From positions 1 to 64,000 of the forward strand of contig CALFBB010000003.1 in the NCBI GenBank assembly GCA_937944885.1: DNA of 64,000 bases, given 5' to 3'. Every line of letters starts with the position of its first letter. Position 1 is the first letter of the stretch. This stretch comes from an uncultured cyanobacterium. Its GTDB lineage: Bacteria > Cyanobacteriota > Cyanobacteriia > Thermostichales > Thermostichaceae. The notes under the pieces are model-generated. The model saw only the letters and a list, made by a program, of their open reading frames with translations, did no database searches and was not told where the DNA came from. Shown here one piece after another: positions 16,174 through 23,238 of this stretch. The translations under genes were made by a program, and so were the position numbers.

Positions 16174-16926
16174 TCAAACCGAGAGATGAGAGCGAACTTT
16201 TTCCTCATCCATTTGACCGGTCAGGCCTTCCATAATCAAGGACCCATTTTCCATCAAATAAAAATAGTCGGCTAAACTCTGGGCAAACTCGAAATACTGC
16301 TCCACCAGCAGTACAGAAACTCCCCATTCTTTCTGAATGCGGCTGATGGCTTCTTCGATCTCGATAATGATGGAGGGTTGGATCCCTTCTGTGGGTTCAT
16401 CTAACAATAACAGTTTTGGCCCTGCAACCAAGGCCCTAGCAATGGCCAGTTGCTGCTGTTGGCCCCCACTTAAATCTCCCCCAAGTCGCTTCAGAAAGGG
16501 ACGCAGAGCTGGGAACAGCTCATAAACAAACTCTGGTATAACTCGTTCTTTTGTGGGAACGGATTCTAAGCCGATCAAAAGGTTTTCTTCTACAGTTAGG
16601 TGAGGAAAGATTTCTCGACCCTGAGGTACATAACCAATCCCGGCACATGCTCTTAGATGAGGAGGATAGTGGGTGATAGGGATCCCATCAAAAGTAATGT
16701 TACCTGTACAGTCTCTTAGCAGTCCCATCAGGGCTTTTAAGGTGGTGGTTTTACCCATGCCGTTGCGACCAAGAAGGCAAACTGCCTGACCAGGAAAGAT
16801 CTTAAAAGAGAGACCCCTTACAATTAAGCTTTGCCCGTAGTAAACATTAAGATCGGAAACCTCCAGTAGAGGTTTGGATCCATCCTGGGATTTATTTTGA
16901 GTTGCAGTGGCCGCTTCTGTATTCAT
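16174..16926 (-). CDS. urtE: Urea ABC transporter ATP-binding protein UrtE
   Basis: UrtE is one of the two ATPases that power high-affinity urea uptake. The 250-residue product belongs to the LivF-like branch. It shows Walker A GRNGMGKTT, the ABC signature LSGGQQQQLA, Walker B LLLLDEPTEG, and the family phrase GIGYVPQGREIFPHLTVEENLL. It is the last gene of the urtABCDE order, about 40 bases after urtD. Confidence 0.94.
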   Translation of the reverse strand: MNTEAATATQNKSQDGSKPLLEVSDLNVYYGQSLIVRGLSFKIFPGQAVCLLGRNGMGKTTTLKALMGLLRDCTGNITFDGIPITHYPPHLRACAGIGYVPQGREIFPHLTVEENLLIGLESVPTKERVIPEFVYELFPALRPFLKRLGGDLSGGQQQQLAIARALVAGPKLLLLDEPTEGIQPSIIIEIEEAISRIQKEWGVSVLLVEQYFEFAQSLADYFYLMENGSLIMEGLTGQMDEEKVRSHLSV

Positions 16927-16967
16927 TTTCTGTTTACTCTCATCTGGAACTCATTAAGGATTGATCG

Positions 16968-17732
16968 TCATCCCCTCTTATGGGATCCGAGATAGACCTC
17001 AATCACCCGCGGATCATTCTTCACCTCCTCAAAGCTCCCCTCACACAGCAGCGCCCCTTGATGTAAGACAGTAACCTTGCGGGCAATTTGCCGGACAAAC
17101 ACCATATCATGCTCGATTACCAAAATGGTATGATTTTTAGCCAGGGATTGGATCAGTTCTCCTGTGGCTTCTGTTTCTTTATCCGTCATGCCAGCTACAC
17201 ATTCATCTAGCAATAGCAAATCTGGATCCTGAGCAATGACCATACCGATTTCTAGCCATTGTTTTTCCCCGTGGGAGAGCAAACCTGCCGGGATCCGATC
17301 CTTATGGACAAGATGAATTGTTTCTAGTAAAGCATCGACTTTATCCCTCAAATCCCGCCTGCCAAACAATGTGGGGAATACCTCTTTATGAGGATTGAGG
17401 GACAACTCTAGGTTCTCACGGGGGTTGAGGTTTTGATAAATACGCGGAGTTTGAAACTTACGACCAATCCCCAAAACCGAGATTTGATGTTCCTTGAGCT
17501 TGGTCAAATCCTTACCCTTAAACAGGACACACCCTTTGGTGGGCCTAACTTTACCTGTCAACACATCCAAGAGAGTGGTTTTACCGGCTCCATTTGGGCC
17601 AATGACCACTCGCAATTCCCCTTCATCCAAGGAAAAGTTAAGTCCATTGAGAGCCTTAAACCCATCAAAACTGACGGTGAGATCCTGGATTTGTAAAATC
17701 TGCCGGGTAGCAATAGGAGCTGCAGTGAGCAT
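16968..17732 (-). CDS. urtD: Urea ABC transporter ATP-binding protein UrtD
   Basis: UrtD is the LivG-like ATPase of the urea transporter. The 254-residue product has Walker A GPNGAGKTT, the divergent signature LSHGEKQWLEI that is typical of UrtD, and Walker B LLLLDECVAGM. A 203-base spacer separates it from urtC, unusually long for this operon, so it may depend on read-through or on an internal promoter. Confidence 0.94.
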   Translation of the reverse strand: MLTAAPIATRQILQIQDLTVSFDGFKALNGLNFSLDEGELRVVIGPNGAGKTTLLDVLTGKVRPTKGCVLFKGKDLTKLKEHQISVLGIGRKFQTPRIYQNLNPRENLELSLNPHKEVFPTLFGRRDLRDKVDALLETIHLVHKDRIPAGLLSHGEKQWLEIGMVIAQDPDLLLLDECVAGMTDKETEATGELIQSLAKNHTILVIEHDMVFVRQIARKVTVLHQGALLCEGSFEEVKNDPRVIEVYLGSHKRG

Positions 17733-17935
17733 AGGGCTTATATCCTAAAGATAGAGGTTAGACCTTGACCTGCAAGCAACCCAACACTGGATTGCAGCTG
17801 ATAGATCTGTCCAAGAAAACCGGCAATGGCCGGCCCCCTGCCAGGAACTTCTCCAGAAAGGGGACAAGTGAGGGTAGTGGCCATCCATTGTGATTTTTCC
17901 CATCAGTTTGGATCCCTTTTACCTGCAGCTGTCCA
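17733..17935 (-). other. urtC-urtD spacer with a hairpin
   Basis: This 203-base spacer contains an inverted repeat near 17819-17835 (CCGGC, three bases, GGCCGG). It could be an RNA hairpin modulating read-through or mRNA stability. The overlapping 61-codon minus-strand frame (17758-17943) shows no family features and intrudes into urtC, so I do not call it a gene. Confidence 0.4.
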
Positions 17936-19081
17936 TTAAGCAAGGGAGGTCTTAGCTAAGCGCCGACGCCAAAGTTGAAAGATAATCCACAGCTGCCGCC
18001 CTTGGGTACGCACCCAGCCTACCAATCCATCCGGTAGCACCATGACCACCAGCAGGAATAACCCGCCCTGAAAGAAGAGCCAAATTTCTGGGAAACTCTC
18101 ACTGAGAAGACTCTTGGCAAAGTTGACCAGTACCGCTCCGATCACAGCCCCAATCAAGCTGGATCGGCCACCTACAGCAACCCAAATCACCATTTCAATA
18201 GAAAAGGGGACGGACATGGCATTGGGGGAAATGATCCCTGTTTGTAATGTAAACAAAGCGCCGGCAATCCCTGCTAAGCCTGCCGCAACCGCAAATACTA
18301 ACACTTTAAATCCGGTTGGATCATAACCTGAGAAGCGCACCCGCGGTTCATCATCTCGAATGGCCACCAGGATCCGTCCAAATAGGCCACTAGTCAGATA
18401 GCGGCAGAGTACATAGGCCAAAGCCACAAACAAAATCGTTGCTACATAAATTGCAAATCGCATTTCTGCAGAATTGATGTTGAGGTCAAACAGAGTTGTA
18501 AAAGATGTCAATCCATTGGTGCCGTTGATCAATCGCTGTTGGCCATTGAAGAAGTTAAAGAAAATAATGGTGGTAGCTTGAGTTAAAATTGAGAAATAGA
18601 CTCCTCGAATCCGATTCCTAACCACCAAATACCCAAGAGCTGATGCTACCAAAGCTGGGATCAGGAAAATAGCAATAGCCGTGAATGAAAATGAATAAAA
18701 GGGTCGCCAAAACCAGGGTAGTTCTGTTACCCCATACAAACTAAAAAACTCCGGGATCCGGCCATCCGGCAGTTGCAAACTTAGGTGCATACCCAGGGCA
18801 TAGCCCCCAAGGGCAAAAAAGACCCCCTGCCCTAAGCTAAGCATTCCTGTATAACCCCAAATCAGGTCAATTCCCAAAGCAACAATGCTGAGAGCTAGAA
18901 ACCGCCCTAACAGGTTAAGACGAAAACCCGACAACACTGCTGGAAACACGAAGATCAGCAGGAGCAGCACACCCATCAGGACTCCAGCTTCTAACAGCAG
19001 TTTGTTGCGAGGGCTGAGATCCAACCCTTGAGCAGGAGTGGTTATTCCATCAGGAGTATGGGGAGAGTGAAGCACTTTCAT
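17936..19081 (-). CDS. urtC: Urea ABC transporter permease UrtC
   Basis: UrtC is a LivM-type integral membrane permease subunit. The 381-residue product has multiple hydrophobic helices and the family segments GYTGMLSLGQGVFFALGGYALG and FAVAAGLAGIAGALFTLQTG. It follows urtB by about 9 bases, indicating cotranscription. Confidence 0.94.
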   Translation of the reverse strand: MKVLHSPHTPDGITTPAQGLDLSPRNKLLLEAGVLMGVLLLLIFVFPAVLSGFRLNLLGRFLALSIVALGIDLIWGYTGMLSLGQGVFFALGGYALGMHLSLQLPDGRIPEFFSLYGVTELPWFWRPFYSFSFTAIAIFLIPALVASALGYLVVRNRIRGVYFSILTQATTIIFFNFFNGQQRLINGTNGLTSFTTLFDLNINSAEMRFAIYVATILFVALAYVLCRYLTSGLFGRILVAIRDDEPRVRFSGYDPTGFKVLVFAVAAGLAGIAGALFTLQTGIISPNAMSVPFSIEMVIWVAVGGRSSLIGAVIGAVLVNFAKSLLSESFPEIWLFFQGGLFLLVVMVLPDGLVGWVRTQGRQLWIIFQLWRRRLAKTSLA

Positions 19082-19090
19082 CCTTCTATC

Positions 19091-20248
19091 CTAGGCATCT
19101 ACCGTTCGACCTTTTTCCGGAAAGAGGCCGCGAGGGCGAAATTGTAAGAACACCACAATCAGGGCAAATACCATCACCTTGGCCATGCTGGTGGTGGCAA
19201 AAAAGTTGAGGGTATCGGTCAAAATGGGAACGCCCGGAAAGATCAAGGCCAAGGTACCAGAACCGATTAAAAAGTTGGCAATGCCGATACCCAAAGCGGC
19301 CACAATGCTGCCCAAAAGCTTGCCGACACCCCCCACCACCACCACCATGAAGGTGTCCACGATGTAGTTTTGACCGGTATTGGGCCCCACGGATCCCAGT
19401 AAGCTAACCGCAACCCCTGCTACACCCGCCAGACCTGAGCCAATGGCAAAGGTGAGGGCATCTACCGTTTGGGTCGGGATCCCGACACAGGCACTCATGG
19501 CGCGATTTTGGGTCACTGCCCGGATCCGCAGCCCCCAGCGGGTATGCTGCAGAAAAATGTACAGCCCAAGGATGCAGACAAGGGTGAGACTGATAATAAA
19601 CAGGCGCGTATTGGGCAAGAAGAGCTGACCCACCGGGATCCCGCCCCGCAGCCAACGGGGTGCTGTTACATCTCTGTTTTGCGCCCCAAACCAGGGCTGT
19701 GTAACCGCCAGGGCATAGGTTTGCGCCAGCAGCCGCCCACCCACGGTTCCAATCGCTGTGGAAAGCACCAGTAACAGGGTGAGAACCCATCCTTTGATAC
19801 GTGGCCAATCCACCCGTTTAGCCAGCAACCACCAACCCCCAAAAAACAGCAACCCAAATACCCCCAACCGTAAAGCCAGCACCCAATTGACGCTGCGGAC
19901 AAACTGCTGCAGGATTAGGCTTACTCCCCAGGTAGCCAATAGGGTTTCCAGTGGACGACCGTAGAGGAAGCGAATCACTGCCCGCTCGAGGATTAACCCC
20001 ACCAGCGCTGCCACCCCAAAAGCAGCCACTAGAGCTGGAAAGATATAGAAATCCCGCCAGGGATCCCCCCATTGCCGGAAGACATTTTGCACCACAAAGG
20101 TGGTATAGGCTCCCAGCATCATCAGCTCCCCATGGGCCATGTTGATGACGCCCATAAGGCCAAAGACAATCGCCAGCCCTAAAGCCGCCATCAGCAGCAC
20201 GGTGCCGATACTGATGCCGTTAAATAAACTGTCAAACAACAGGGTCAT
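19091..20248 (-). CDS. urtB: Urea ABC transporter permease UrtB
   Basis: UrtB is the LivH-type permease subunit of the urea transporter. The 385-residue product has the characteristic GLAIVFGLMGVINMAHGELMMLGAY segment and AIGSGLAGVAGVAVSLLGSVGP. A long central insertion with extra hydrophobic stretches (about residues 120-200) makes it longer than amino-acid LivH proteins, as I recall for cyanobacterial UrtB. ATG 20248 is preferred over the track start 20269. Confidence 0.93.
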   Translation of the reverse strand: MTLLFDSLFNGISIGTVLLMAALGLAIVFGLMGVINMAHGELMMLGAYTTFVVQNVFRQWGDPWRDFYIFPALVAAFGVAALVGLILERAVIRFLYGRPLETLLATWGVSLILQQFVRSVNWVLALRLGVFGLLFFGGWWLLAKRVDWPRIKGWVLTLLLVLSTAIGTVGGRLLAQTYALAVTQPWFGAQNRDVTAPRWLRGGIPVGQLFLPNTRLFIISLTLVCILGLYIFLQHTRWGLRIRAVTQNRAMSACVGIPTQTVDALTFAIGSGLAGVAGVAVSLLGSVGPNTGQNYIVDTFMVVVVGGVGKLLGSIVAALGIGIANFLIGSGTLALIFPGVPILTDTLNFFATTSMAKVMVFALIVVFLQFRPRGLFPEKGRTVDA

Positions 20249-20340
20249 AAGTCGGGGATCCTCATCCAAGCATTTCTTGATGGAGGGAAAGTCAACTCTT
20301 TTCCCAAAAATACTTATTCAGAACATTCAGAACAATTCCA

Positions 20341-20388
20341 GAACAATCCTGAGAACGATCCTGAGAACAATCCTGAGAACGATCCTGA
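20341..20388. repeat. 12-bp tandem repeat between urtA and urtB
   Basis: Four head-to-tail 12-mers alternate between GAACAATCCTGA and GAACGATCCTGA. Degenerate CAGAACA units precede them from about 20320. The array lies wholly in the spacer between urtA and urtB. Confidence 0.9.
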
Positions 20389-20442
20389 ACGGTGAGGCGG
20401 GATTGGCAGCCGAAAAGGGATCTCGACATTCATAGGCTGAGA

Positions 20443-21714
20443 TTACACCTGGTAACGCCCCCCCTTGGTCGGATCTGACCAGTCACAGGCATAGCCTTTG
20501 GTTTCGGCCACAAACTGGTTCCAGGGCAAGGGATCCACCGCATCGGTGGCCGAAATCACCTCGAACAGGCCATCAGAACGCACTTGCCCAATCCGCACGT
20601 ACTTGGTTAAGTGGTGGTTGCTGTTCATGGTTACCAATCCCTCTGGTGCGTCGAAGGTTTGGCCGTAGGCTGCCTGCCGAACGGCATCAATTTCCACTGT
20701 TCCGGCTTTTTCCACCGCCTGCTTCCAGAGGTAAACCATGATGTAGGCGGCTTCCATCGGGTCGTTGGTAACACGGTTTTGGCCGTACTCTGCCCGAAAA
20801 GCCTCCACAAACTTCTTGTTGGCAGGTGTATCCACCGTCATAAAGTAGTTCCAGGCAGCGTAGTGACCCTCCAGAAACTCAGGGCCGATTGCCTGCACCT
20901 CTTCTTCAGCAATACTGACGGACATAGAGGGGTAGCGATCTGGCCCTAGCCCTGCCCCTTGTAATTGGGTAAAGAAGGCCACGTTGCTGTCGCCGTTCAA
21001 GCTGTTGTAGATGATGCCACCCTTGGGAAGGGCAGCGCGGATCTTGCTGATGATCGGGGTTACTTCTGTATTGCCCAAGGGCAGGTAGTCTTCACCCACC
21101 ACAGTGCCGCCCAGGGCTTCCAGTTGCGCTTTGATGATGGTATTGGCGGTGCGGGGGAACACGTAGTCGGATCCCACTAGGAAGAACTCTTTGCCTTTGT
21201 TTTTGAGCAGCCATTCTACGGAAGGCTCGATCTGCTGGTTGGGGGCAGCGCCGGTGTAGAAGATGTTTTTGGAGCATTCCTGCCCTTCGTACTGCACCGG
21301 ATACCAGAGCATATGCTGCCTAGACTCAAACACCGGCAAAACGGCTTTCCGGCTAGCAGAAGTCCAGCAGCCAAACACCGTTGCTACTTTGTCAGAGTCG
21401 ATCAGCTTGGTGGCTTTTTCAGCAAAGGTGGGCCAATCGGAGGCTCCATCCTCCACAATCGCCTCAATCTGCTTCCCCAACACCCCACCAGCAGCATTGA
21501 TCTCTTTAATGGCTAGGCGCTCGGCATCCACCACACTGGTCTCTGAAATCGCCATGGTGCCACTGAGGGAGTGCAGGATCCCAACTCGAATGGTTTCCCC
21601 CTGAGCATAAGCGGGCAGAGAATGCTTGACCCAAAGCTGAGGACCTAGAGCTACCCCAGCTCCAGCTAGGGCACCCATTTTGATGAGTTGACGGCGATTA
21701 AGAGAATGAGCCAT
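20443..21714 (-). CDS. urtA: Urea ABC transporter substrate-binding protein UrtA
   Basis: UrtA is the periplasmic urea-binding protein. The product of about 423 residues carries a twin-arginine-type signal ([19 protein letters not shown]) ending near AYAQG, and then the mature start [19 protein letters not shown]. The segments [17 protein letters not shown] and [19 protein letters not shown] match the UrtA/AmiC-like family. ATG 21714 (MAHSLNRRQ), preceded by AAGG, is preferred over 21765. It is the first gene of the operon and follows an NtcA-type promoter. Confidence 0.95.
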
Positions 21715-21897
21715 ACCTTTGTCTCCGAGACGAAGCGGGTTCAACTGGGCAAAAACTGGTGTCACGATGAGCAGCTCGGCCTAGTCCTGGTTCTGGACTA
21801 CATCACCATCAATCGGCTGCCAAAGCAATGCAGCCCACGAAAGGGGCCATTGGCAGGCAAGAGAAGTAGCTTTCGTTGCTGTTGACCGAGCTCTGTG

Positions 21898-21941
21898 GTA
21901 TTAAACCGATTTGGCTGCCGATGAACTGTATTGCTAGCTAC
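21898..21941 (-). promoter_or_regulatory. NtcA-activated-type promoter of the urt operon
   Basis: The palindrome GTA-N8-TAC (GTATTGCTAGCTAC, 21928-21941) fits the NtcA consensus exactly. On the minus strand, 24 bases beyond it, lies TAATAC (21898-21903), a plausible -10 element. This spacing is that of class II NtcA-activated promoters, where the NtcA box replaces the -35. NtcA activates urt genes under nitrogen limitation in other cyanobacteria. The predicted leader is about 175 bases. Confidence 0.75.
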
Positions 21942-22230
21942 TTTTGTCGGTGGTATGGGTTTAACCCTCTGGGGATCCCTTGACTTGTCGGTATCTCAGA
22001 GAAGTCTGTTTTTCCGCTTTTTTTGGGTTTTTAACCAAAGCGGGATCCTGCTTCAGACCTGGCGGGAGCAGGGTCGATCCGACGGGCAGCTCCGGTATGC
22101 TTTTGGTGAGTAACCGGAACAGGAAGATCCTATCTGCCCTGAAAGGAGGCTTGGGTGGGAGCAGCCAGCCCAGAGAAAACCACTGCGTCCGCAACATGGA
22201 TTCGGTCAGGTGCAGGAAGCTATCAGGCTC
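21942..22230. other. Intergenic region between the urt promoter and a transpeptidase gene
   Basis: No gene is apparent in these roughly 290 bases. Short overlapping frames on both strands lack family features. The short direct repeat ATGGTTGCAATGATATGGTT lies near 22233, at the very end of the neighbouring gene. Confidence 0.4.
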
Positions 22231-23139
22231 CTATGGTTGCAATGATATGGTTGCAATGATCTGTCGGGCGATGGGTATGGCGGCTTCGTAGGCTTTGCCT
22301 TGATGCAGATGCAAAACCAGGGCCCAATGAGGATCGGGCAGGGGCCAAAAGGCCAATAGCCAAGCTTGAAAATCTTCTGCCCAGAGGGTTGGCCGGCCCA
22401 GGCGACGAGAGTTGAGAATGGTTCCCGACTTAGCCGCCACCGGGATCCCTTGCGGAGCAATCCCTCGGCAGGTGCCAGAAAAAGCGGCTAGACGCAAGCC
22501 GGTGTGAAGGGAATCCCAAACAGGTTCAGCCAGAGAAATGGCCGGGATCCGCACTTCTCCCTCTAGGGGTAGGCCGCGTCGGGCAATAGCCGCTGTATAA
22601 GCCAGCAAGTCCCAGGGATCCACCCCCCAGCCGGGCAGCTGACCGGTGGCCAATAGAGGTGAGGGGGCTGTTTTTGTAGCCGGGCTATTTCCTAAGCCAA
22701 AGCGCTGCAGCCATTCCCAGAGAGCCACGCTTCCCAGCTCCCATCCCAACTGGTAAAAATGCACATTGCAGGAGTGGGCCAAGGCTTCAGATAAAGTCAG
22801 GGATCCATGACCACGGGGATCCCAGCAGGGCAGGCGACCCAACCCCAACTGCGCCGGCGGATCCCACCAGCCTGGGCAATGCAGGGTGCGTTCTGCATGG
22901 GTGATCCCAGTTGCCAGAGCTGCAGCAGCAACCGCACATTTGACTGTCGAGCCAGGAGCGGCCTGAATGTGGGAGGCCTGATCCGGTTGCCAAAGGGCAG
23001 CTTTACGACCTGTCCGCAGGTTGAGAACGACAGCAAAATCCCGCGGATGAGACAGGAGGGGTTGCCCAAAACTTGCCCACCCTGCCCCCCAAGCTAAGGC
23101 AGACCCAGACAACCCAGCCCCAAAAACTCGACGCTTCAT
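22231..23139 (-). CDS. Small stand-alone penicillin-binding transpeptidase-like protein
   Basis: The product of about 302 residues looks like a bare penicillin-binding transpeptidase domain behind a basic, hydrophobic leader (MKRRVFGAGLSGSALAWGAG). The active-site triad is readable as STVK in PGSTVKC, SCN in AHSCNVHFY, and KSGT in VAAKSGT. No N-terminal dimerisation domain is present, unlike full class B PBPs such as mrdA in this window. It could be a crosslinking enzyme or a penicilloyl-sensor-like protein. It is divergent from psaE. Confidence 0.75.
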   Translation of the reverse strand: MKRRVFGAGLSGSALAWGAGWASFGQPLLSHPRDFAVVLNLRTGRKAALWQPDQASHIQAAPGSTVKCAVAAAALATGITHAERTLHCPGWWDPPAQLGLGRLPCWDPRGHGSLTLSEALAHSCNVHFYQLGWELGSVALWEWLQRFGLGNSPATKTAPSPLLATGQLPGWGVDPWDLLAYTAAIARRGLPLEGEVRIPAISLAEPVWDSLHTGLRLAAFSGTCRGIAPQGIPVAAKSGTILNSRRLGRPTLWAEDFQAWLLAFWPLPDPHWALVLHLHQGKAYEAAIPIARQIIATISLQP

Positions 23140-23238
23140 GCCCACTCAGGGACCCCGATCCCTGTCACAAAAATTCAGAAATCGCAGCCACTTCACCAAC
23201 TAGGGTAATCTGAGTTCAGGTCAATGGAGATAACCCTC

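Follow-up and report, generated by a model that had tools for sequence, protein, structure and literature searches.

A probable class II NtcA-type promoter with a non-canonical -10 element in front of urtABCDE in a Thermostichus-type cyanobacterium

Are the urea transporter genes of a hot-spring cyanobacterium under nitrogen control and, if so, through which promoter elements? The question is raised by a 64 kb stretch of DNA, analysed as a whole and called the window here, in which the first-pass annotation had recognised the operon urtABCDE preceded by a class II NtcA-type promoter. The gene assignment has been verified on the minus strand at 16174-21714, since the five subunits, all encoded on the same strand, each score above the NCBIfam cut-off of an equivalog-level model:

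20443-21714, minus strand: urtA, urea ABC transporter substrate-binding protein (TIGR03407, 606.8 bits)
19091-20269, minus strand: urtB, permease (TIGR03409, 377.4 bits)
17936-19081, minus strand: urtC, permease (TIGR03408, 440.2 bits)
16968-17732, minus strand: urtD, ATPase (TIGR03411, 360 bits)
16174-16926, minus strand: urtE, ATPase (TIGR03410, 327 bits)

The start codon of urtA is the ATG at 21714, which is conserved in the genus together with a GGAG, and the relatives of the protein include that of Synechococcus sp. M44_DOE_062 (92%). A further in-frame start, GTG, is found upstream of this ATG, at 21765. In two of the genus loci (L002 and L003) a 14-codon frame (ATG ACA ATC CTT GAA AA...) comes to a stop a few bases short of the urtA ATG; the equivalent stretch of the window shares the reading frame of urtA from GTG 21765. 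This short frame is possibly due to chance.

Control of the urt genes by NtcA is established in other cyanobacteria, as had been said at first pass: urtA is among the Anabaena genes with canonical NtcA promoters and is also a ChIP-supported target (PMC3898017), the Anabaena genes are described as NtcA-controlled in a further source (Valladares 2002, as cited in PMC6737895), and the same control has been reported for Prochlorococcus (PMC5607370). Within the literature covered, which takes in genome-wide predictions only partly, no paper was found with an NtcA site at urtA in the present genus. The best explanation of the locus, which the comparisons given below make very likely, is a class II (CRP-like) promoter through which NtcA activates urtABCDE in a Thermostichus-type cyanobacterium, the window belonging most likely to the hot-spring 'Synechococcus' A/B lineage. 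The elements of this promoter and of its predicted transcript are the following:

21928-21941, minus strand: NtcA-type box GTAGCTAGCAATAC (GTA-N8-TAC) with conserved triplets, centred at 21934.5, which is -41.5 from the predicted start
21900-21905, minus strand: TTTAAT, the predicted -10 element, separated from the box by 22 bases (N22), a spacing conserved in six of six genus species
21898-21903, minus strand: TAATAC, at N24, not conserved in the genus and probably not the -10 element
21893, minus strand: predicted transcription start (G), 7 bases past the -10 element
21715-21893, minus strand: predicted 5' leader of urtA, some 179 nt long, without an Rfam match and with ordinary folding

The exact match to GTA-N8-TAC claimed for this position is indeed there, as GTATTGCTAGCTAC on the plus strand, 213 bases ahead of the urtA ATG. 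Its description as a near-perfect palindrome does not hold, since, with the box kept in register, self-complementarity is confined to the outer GTA and TAC (0 of the 8 interior positions), and TAGCTA, which had been called central, is seen on direct reading to sit off centre. Taken by itself, such a match is weak evidence. The bare motif occurs 6 times in the window against 3.4 expected, and 13 of 100 shuffles reached at least 6; furthermore, a whole-genome count of the box followed at N22 by T...AT gave 10 and its reversed control 8, and pattern counting of this sort was set aside as too unspecific. Both the bare motif and its combination with a loose -10 element being near chance, the case rests on comparison, and whatever significance the sequence has comes from its conservation.

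The urtA upstream regions of six genomes of the genus (L001-L006) were therefore aligned. They share a block reading AA-R-GTA-N8-TAC-N2-TTC, then AAT-S-GGTTT-R-AT, farther upstream of which the sequence diverges between subgroups of the genus. Within the block, GTA and TAC are invariant and in register in all six species, which are related and thus not six independent witnesses (G001, G003 and G004 are nearly alike over the promoter), while the interior of the box is invariant at a single one of its eight columns. The whole alignment holds three invariant 3-N8-3 combinations, two of which belong to the block of the ribosome-binding site and start codon; the third, GTA-N8-TAC, is the single palindrome among them. 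Conservation in related genomes, proposed at first pass as a check on the box, thus came out in its favour within the genus, as it did before urtA across the cyanobacteria. Besides, a genome of the same family carries a second urtA relative (L131, G007:C263:18462-19722), 72-74% identical and spread over two overlapping frames; inspection by eye of the sequence read upstream of it showed no GTA-N8-TAC.

The alignment also bears on the -10 element, which had been assigned to TAATAC. This hexamer is present where it was placed, on the minus strand at 21903-21898 and 24 bases past the box, but it is not a conserved -10 element: its counterparts in the relatives are TGATGT, TGATAA and TGATGG, it ends in C, and the tally of spacings over all fetched urtA loci contains no TAN3T at N24. 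The conserved hexamer begins two bases before it, at N22, and reads TTTAAT in the window and TTTGAT in the other five species of the genus (TTTRAT overall), so that the assignment has been moved to TTTAAT. From the position of this hexamer, 21905-21900, a start at 21893 is predicted, which would centre the box exactly on the canonical -41.5 (PMC3898017); the start implied by TAATAC would place the centre at -43.5. Neither form of the hexamer is a TAN3T, the A of position 2 being absent in six of six species, so the promoter would be NtcA-type but non-canonical in its -10, rather than strictly canonical. The region 21650-22300 contains no pair of sigma-70 -35 and -10 elements, and the arrangement is in this respect that of a class II promoter, which has no functional -35 element and in which the box takes its place. 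As regards the leader, the Rfam search gave no match up to E = 5 and the predicted folding was no better than that of shuffled sequences (z = +0.71), results on which a riboswitch or other RNA element in it was rejected.

The same block can be read differently, NtcA binding to the box but mainly repressing. The TAC of the box begins a hexamer resembling TAN3T (TACAGT, TACGAT or TACAAT in the genus, with TAC-R-R-T kept in six of six species), which might be the -10 element of another promoter blocked by NtcA, and repressed genes with the box downstream of the -35 element do exist, namely rbcL and gor (PMC3898017). Nevertheless, no acceptable -35 element stands upstream of this hexamer in the window, this reading offers no explanation for the GGTTTRAT conserved at exactly N22, and the urt genes of other cyanobacteria are NtcA-activated according to PMC5607370 and PMC6737895, all of which makes repression improbable beside the activation preferred here.

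A wider comparison was made outside the genus, taking one genome per family in 18 families (L007-L024) and the 300 bp next to urtA. GTAN8TAC was present in 14 of the 18 families (0.89 in dinucleotide shuffles), and in 12 it was followed by TAN3T at N21-N24 (0.04 in the shuffles). With the relaxed pattern GTN10AC, 90 of 100 non-genus loci were positive against a shuffle mean of 3.5 and a maximum of 8, although many of these loci come from close relatives and the count per family is the fairer one. The loci lacking a perfect box, mainly from Nostoc and its relatives, have mostly GTN10AC variants, for instance GTATAAGAAGTAAC, with the -10 element at N23. Over all fetched loci TAN3T lies at N22 (25 loci) or N23 (14), other spacings being rare, and in the majority of urtA promoters from outside the genus it stands at one of these two distances. 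A chance GTA-N8-TAC, with the real and constitutive promoter elsewhere, would agree with the near-chance counts in window and genome, but it is very improbable given a box invariant in six species despite its variable interior, the recurrence of this arrangement ahead of urtA in most families of cyanobacteria and the failure to find a sigma-70-like promoter in the region.

Activation by NtcA also presupposes the protein, and each of the nine genomes searched encodes it. The copy of the source genome scores 388 bits against TIGR03697 (cut-off 245 bits), and its recognition-helix region is near-identical to that of the solved NtcA, with conservative differences only. Use of the box by another CRP-family protein is the least probable reading of all: the NtcA family model does have five other matches in the source genome, but these are weaker and NtcA alone exceeds the cut-off, GTAN8TAC is the consensus for NtcA, and the box does not fit the known consensus of CRP, TGTGA-N6-TCACA. 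Moreover, in the ntcA promoter of the genus a TAN3T hexamer follows GTA-N8-TAC, and the glnA promoter has GTATCAGAAACTAC followed by TAGGAT at N22, with one mismatch in the box in three species, the source genome included. These boxes, with their -10 elements at N22 or N23, indicate that the NtcA promoter rule holds in the lineage. A search of 700 bp ahead of amt and of ureC in the genus found no conserved box; ureC may be internal to an operon and is then uninformative. Altogether, the genus footprint, the recurrence at urtA, the presence of NtcA and the promoters of ntcA and glnA support the class II NtcA-type promoter proposed at first pass.

In Anabaena sp. PCC 7120 the promoter of urtA likewise has its box ahead of the gene and class II geometry, and the operon product is the same (PMC3898017, PMC6737895), whereas canonical promoters have a TAN3T in the place of the present TTTAAT, or TTTGAT in the relatives. 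In Prochlorococcus MED4 the urt operon is likewise NtcA-regulated, and the comparison with it is one of regulation. Within the genus itself, glnA and ntcA share box and spacing with urtA but keep TAN3T (e.g. TAGGAT, TACTTT, TAGCTT). The conserved non-TAN3T -10 is thus the sole unusual feature of the predicted promoter, and it may mean a stricter dependence on NtcA. That TTTRAT is a weak -10 element maintained by selection in this early-branching thermophilic lineage, making urea uptake strictly NtcA-dependent, unlike glnA and ntcA with their TAN3T, is a tentative idea, and rather an unlikely one.

From these comparisons we infer NtcA binding, activation, the start site and an operon transcript, which could be connected as follows. 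Under nitrogen limitation 2-oxoglutarate would rise and charge the NtcA dimer. PipX is a co-activator of NtcA, and the dimer with PipX would bind GTAGCTAGCAATAC at -41.5, in the place of a would-be -35 element. The bound protein would then contact RNA polymerase and recruit it to the poor TTTAAT, 22 bases downstream, giving a transcript that would start near 21893 and run through the leader of some 179 nt and from urtA through urtE. In all likelihood the promoter is a nitrogen-starvation switch of the ordinary kind, a correct but unsurprising new instance of a known regulon. With it, a well-known circuit of nitrogen control takes in the urea transporter of one lineage of hot-spring cyanobacteria; general understanding is left unchanged, while the promoter coordinates supplied are precise and open to testing.

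Two observations concern the neighbouring sequence. The gene upstream of the promoter (22231-23145, minus strand) encodes a short transpeptidase resembling penicillin-binding protein 2 (104 bits against a cut-off of 455 bits) and carries at its 3' end a short tandem duplication, atggttgcaatgat. Furthermore, the usual cyanobacterial HIP1, GCGATCGC, occurs just twice in the window, and the palindrome GGGATCCC occurs 62 times (e.g. near 21973) against about 1.4 expected from base composition; it is a lineage-specific highly iterated palindrome.
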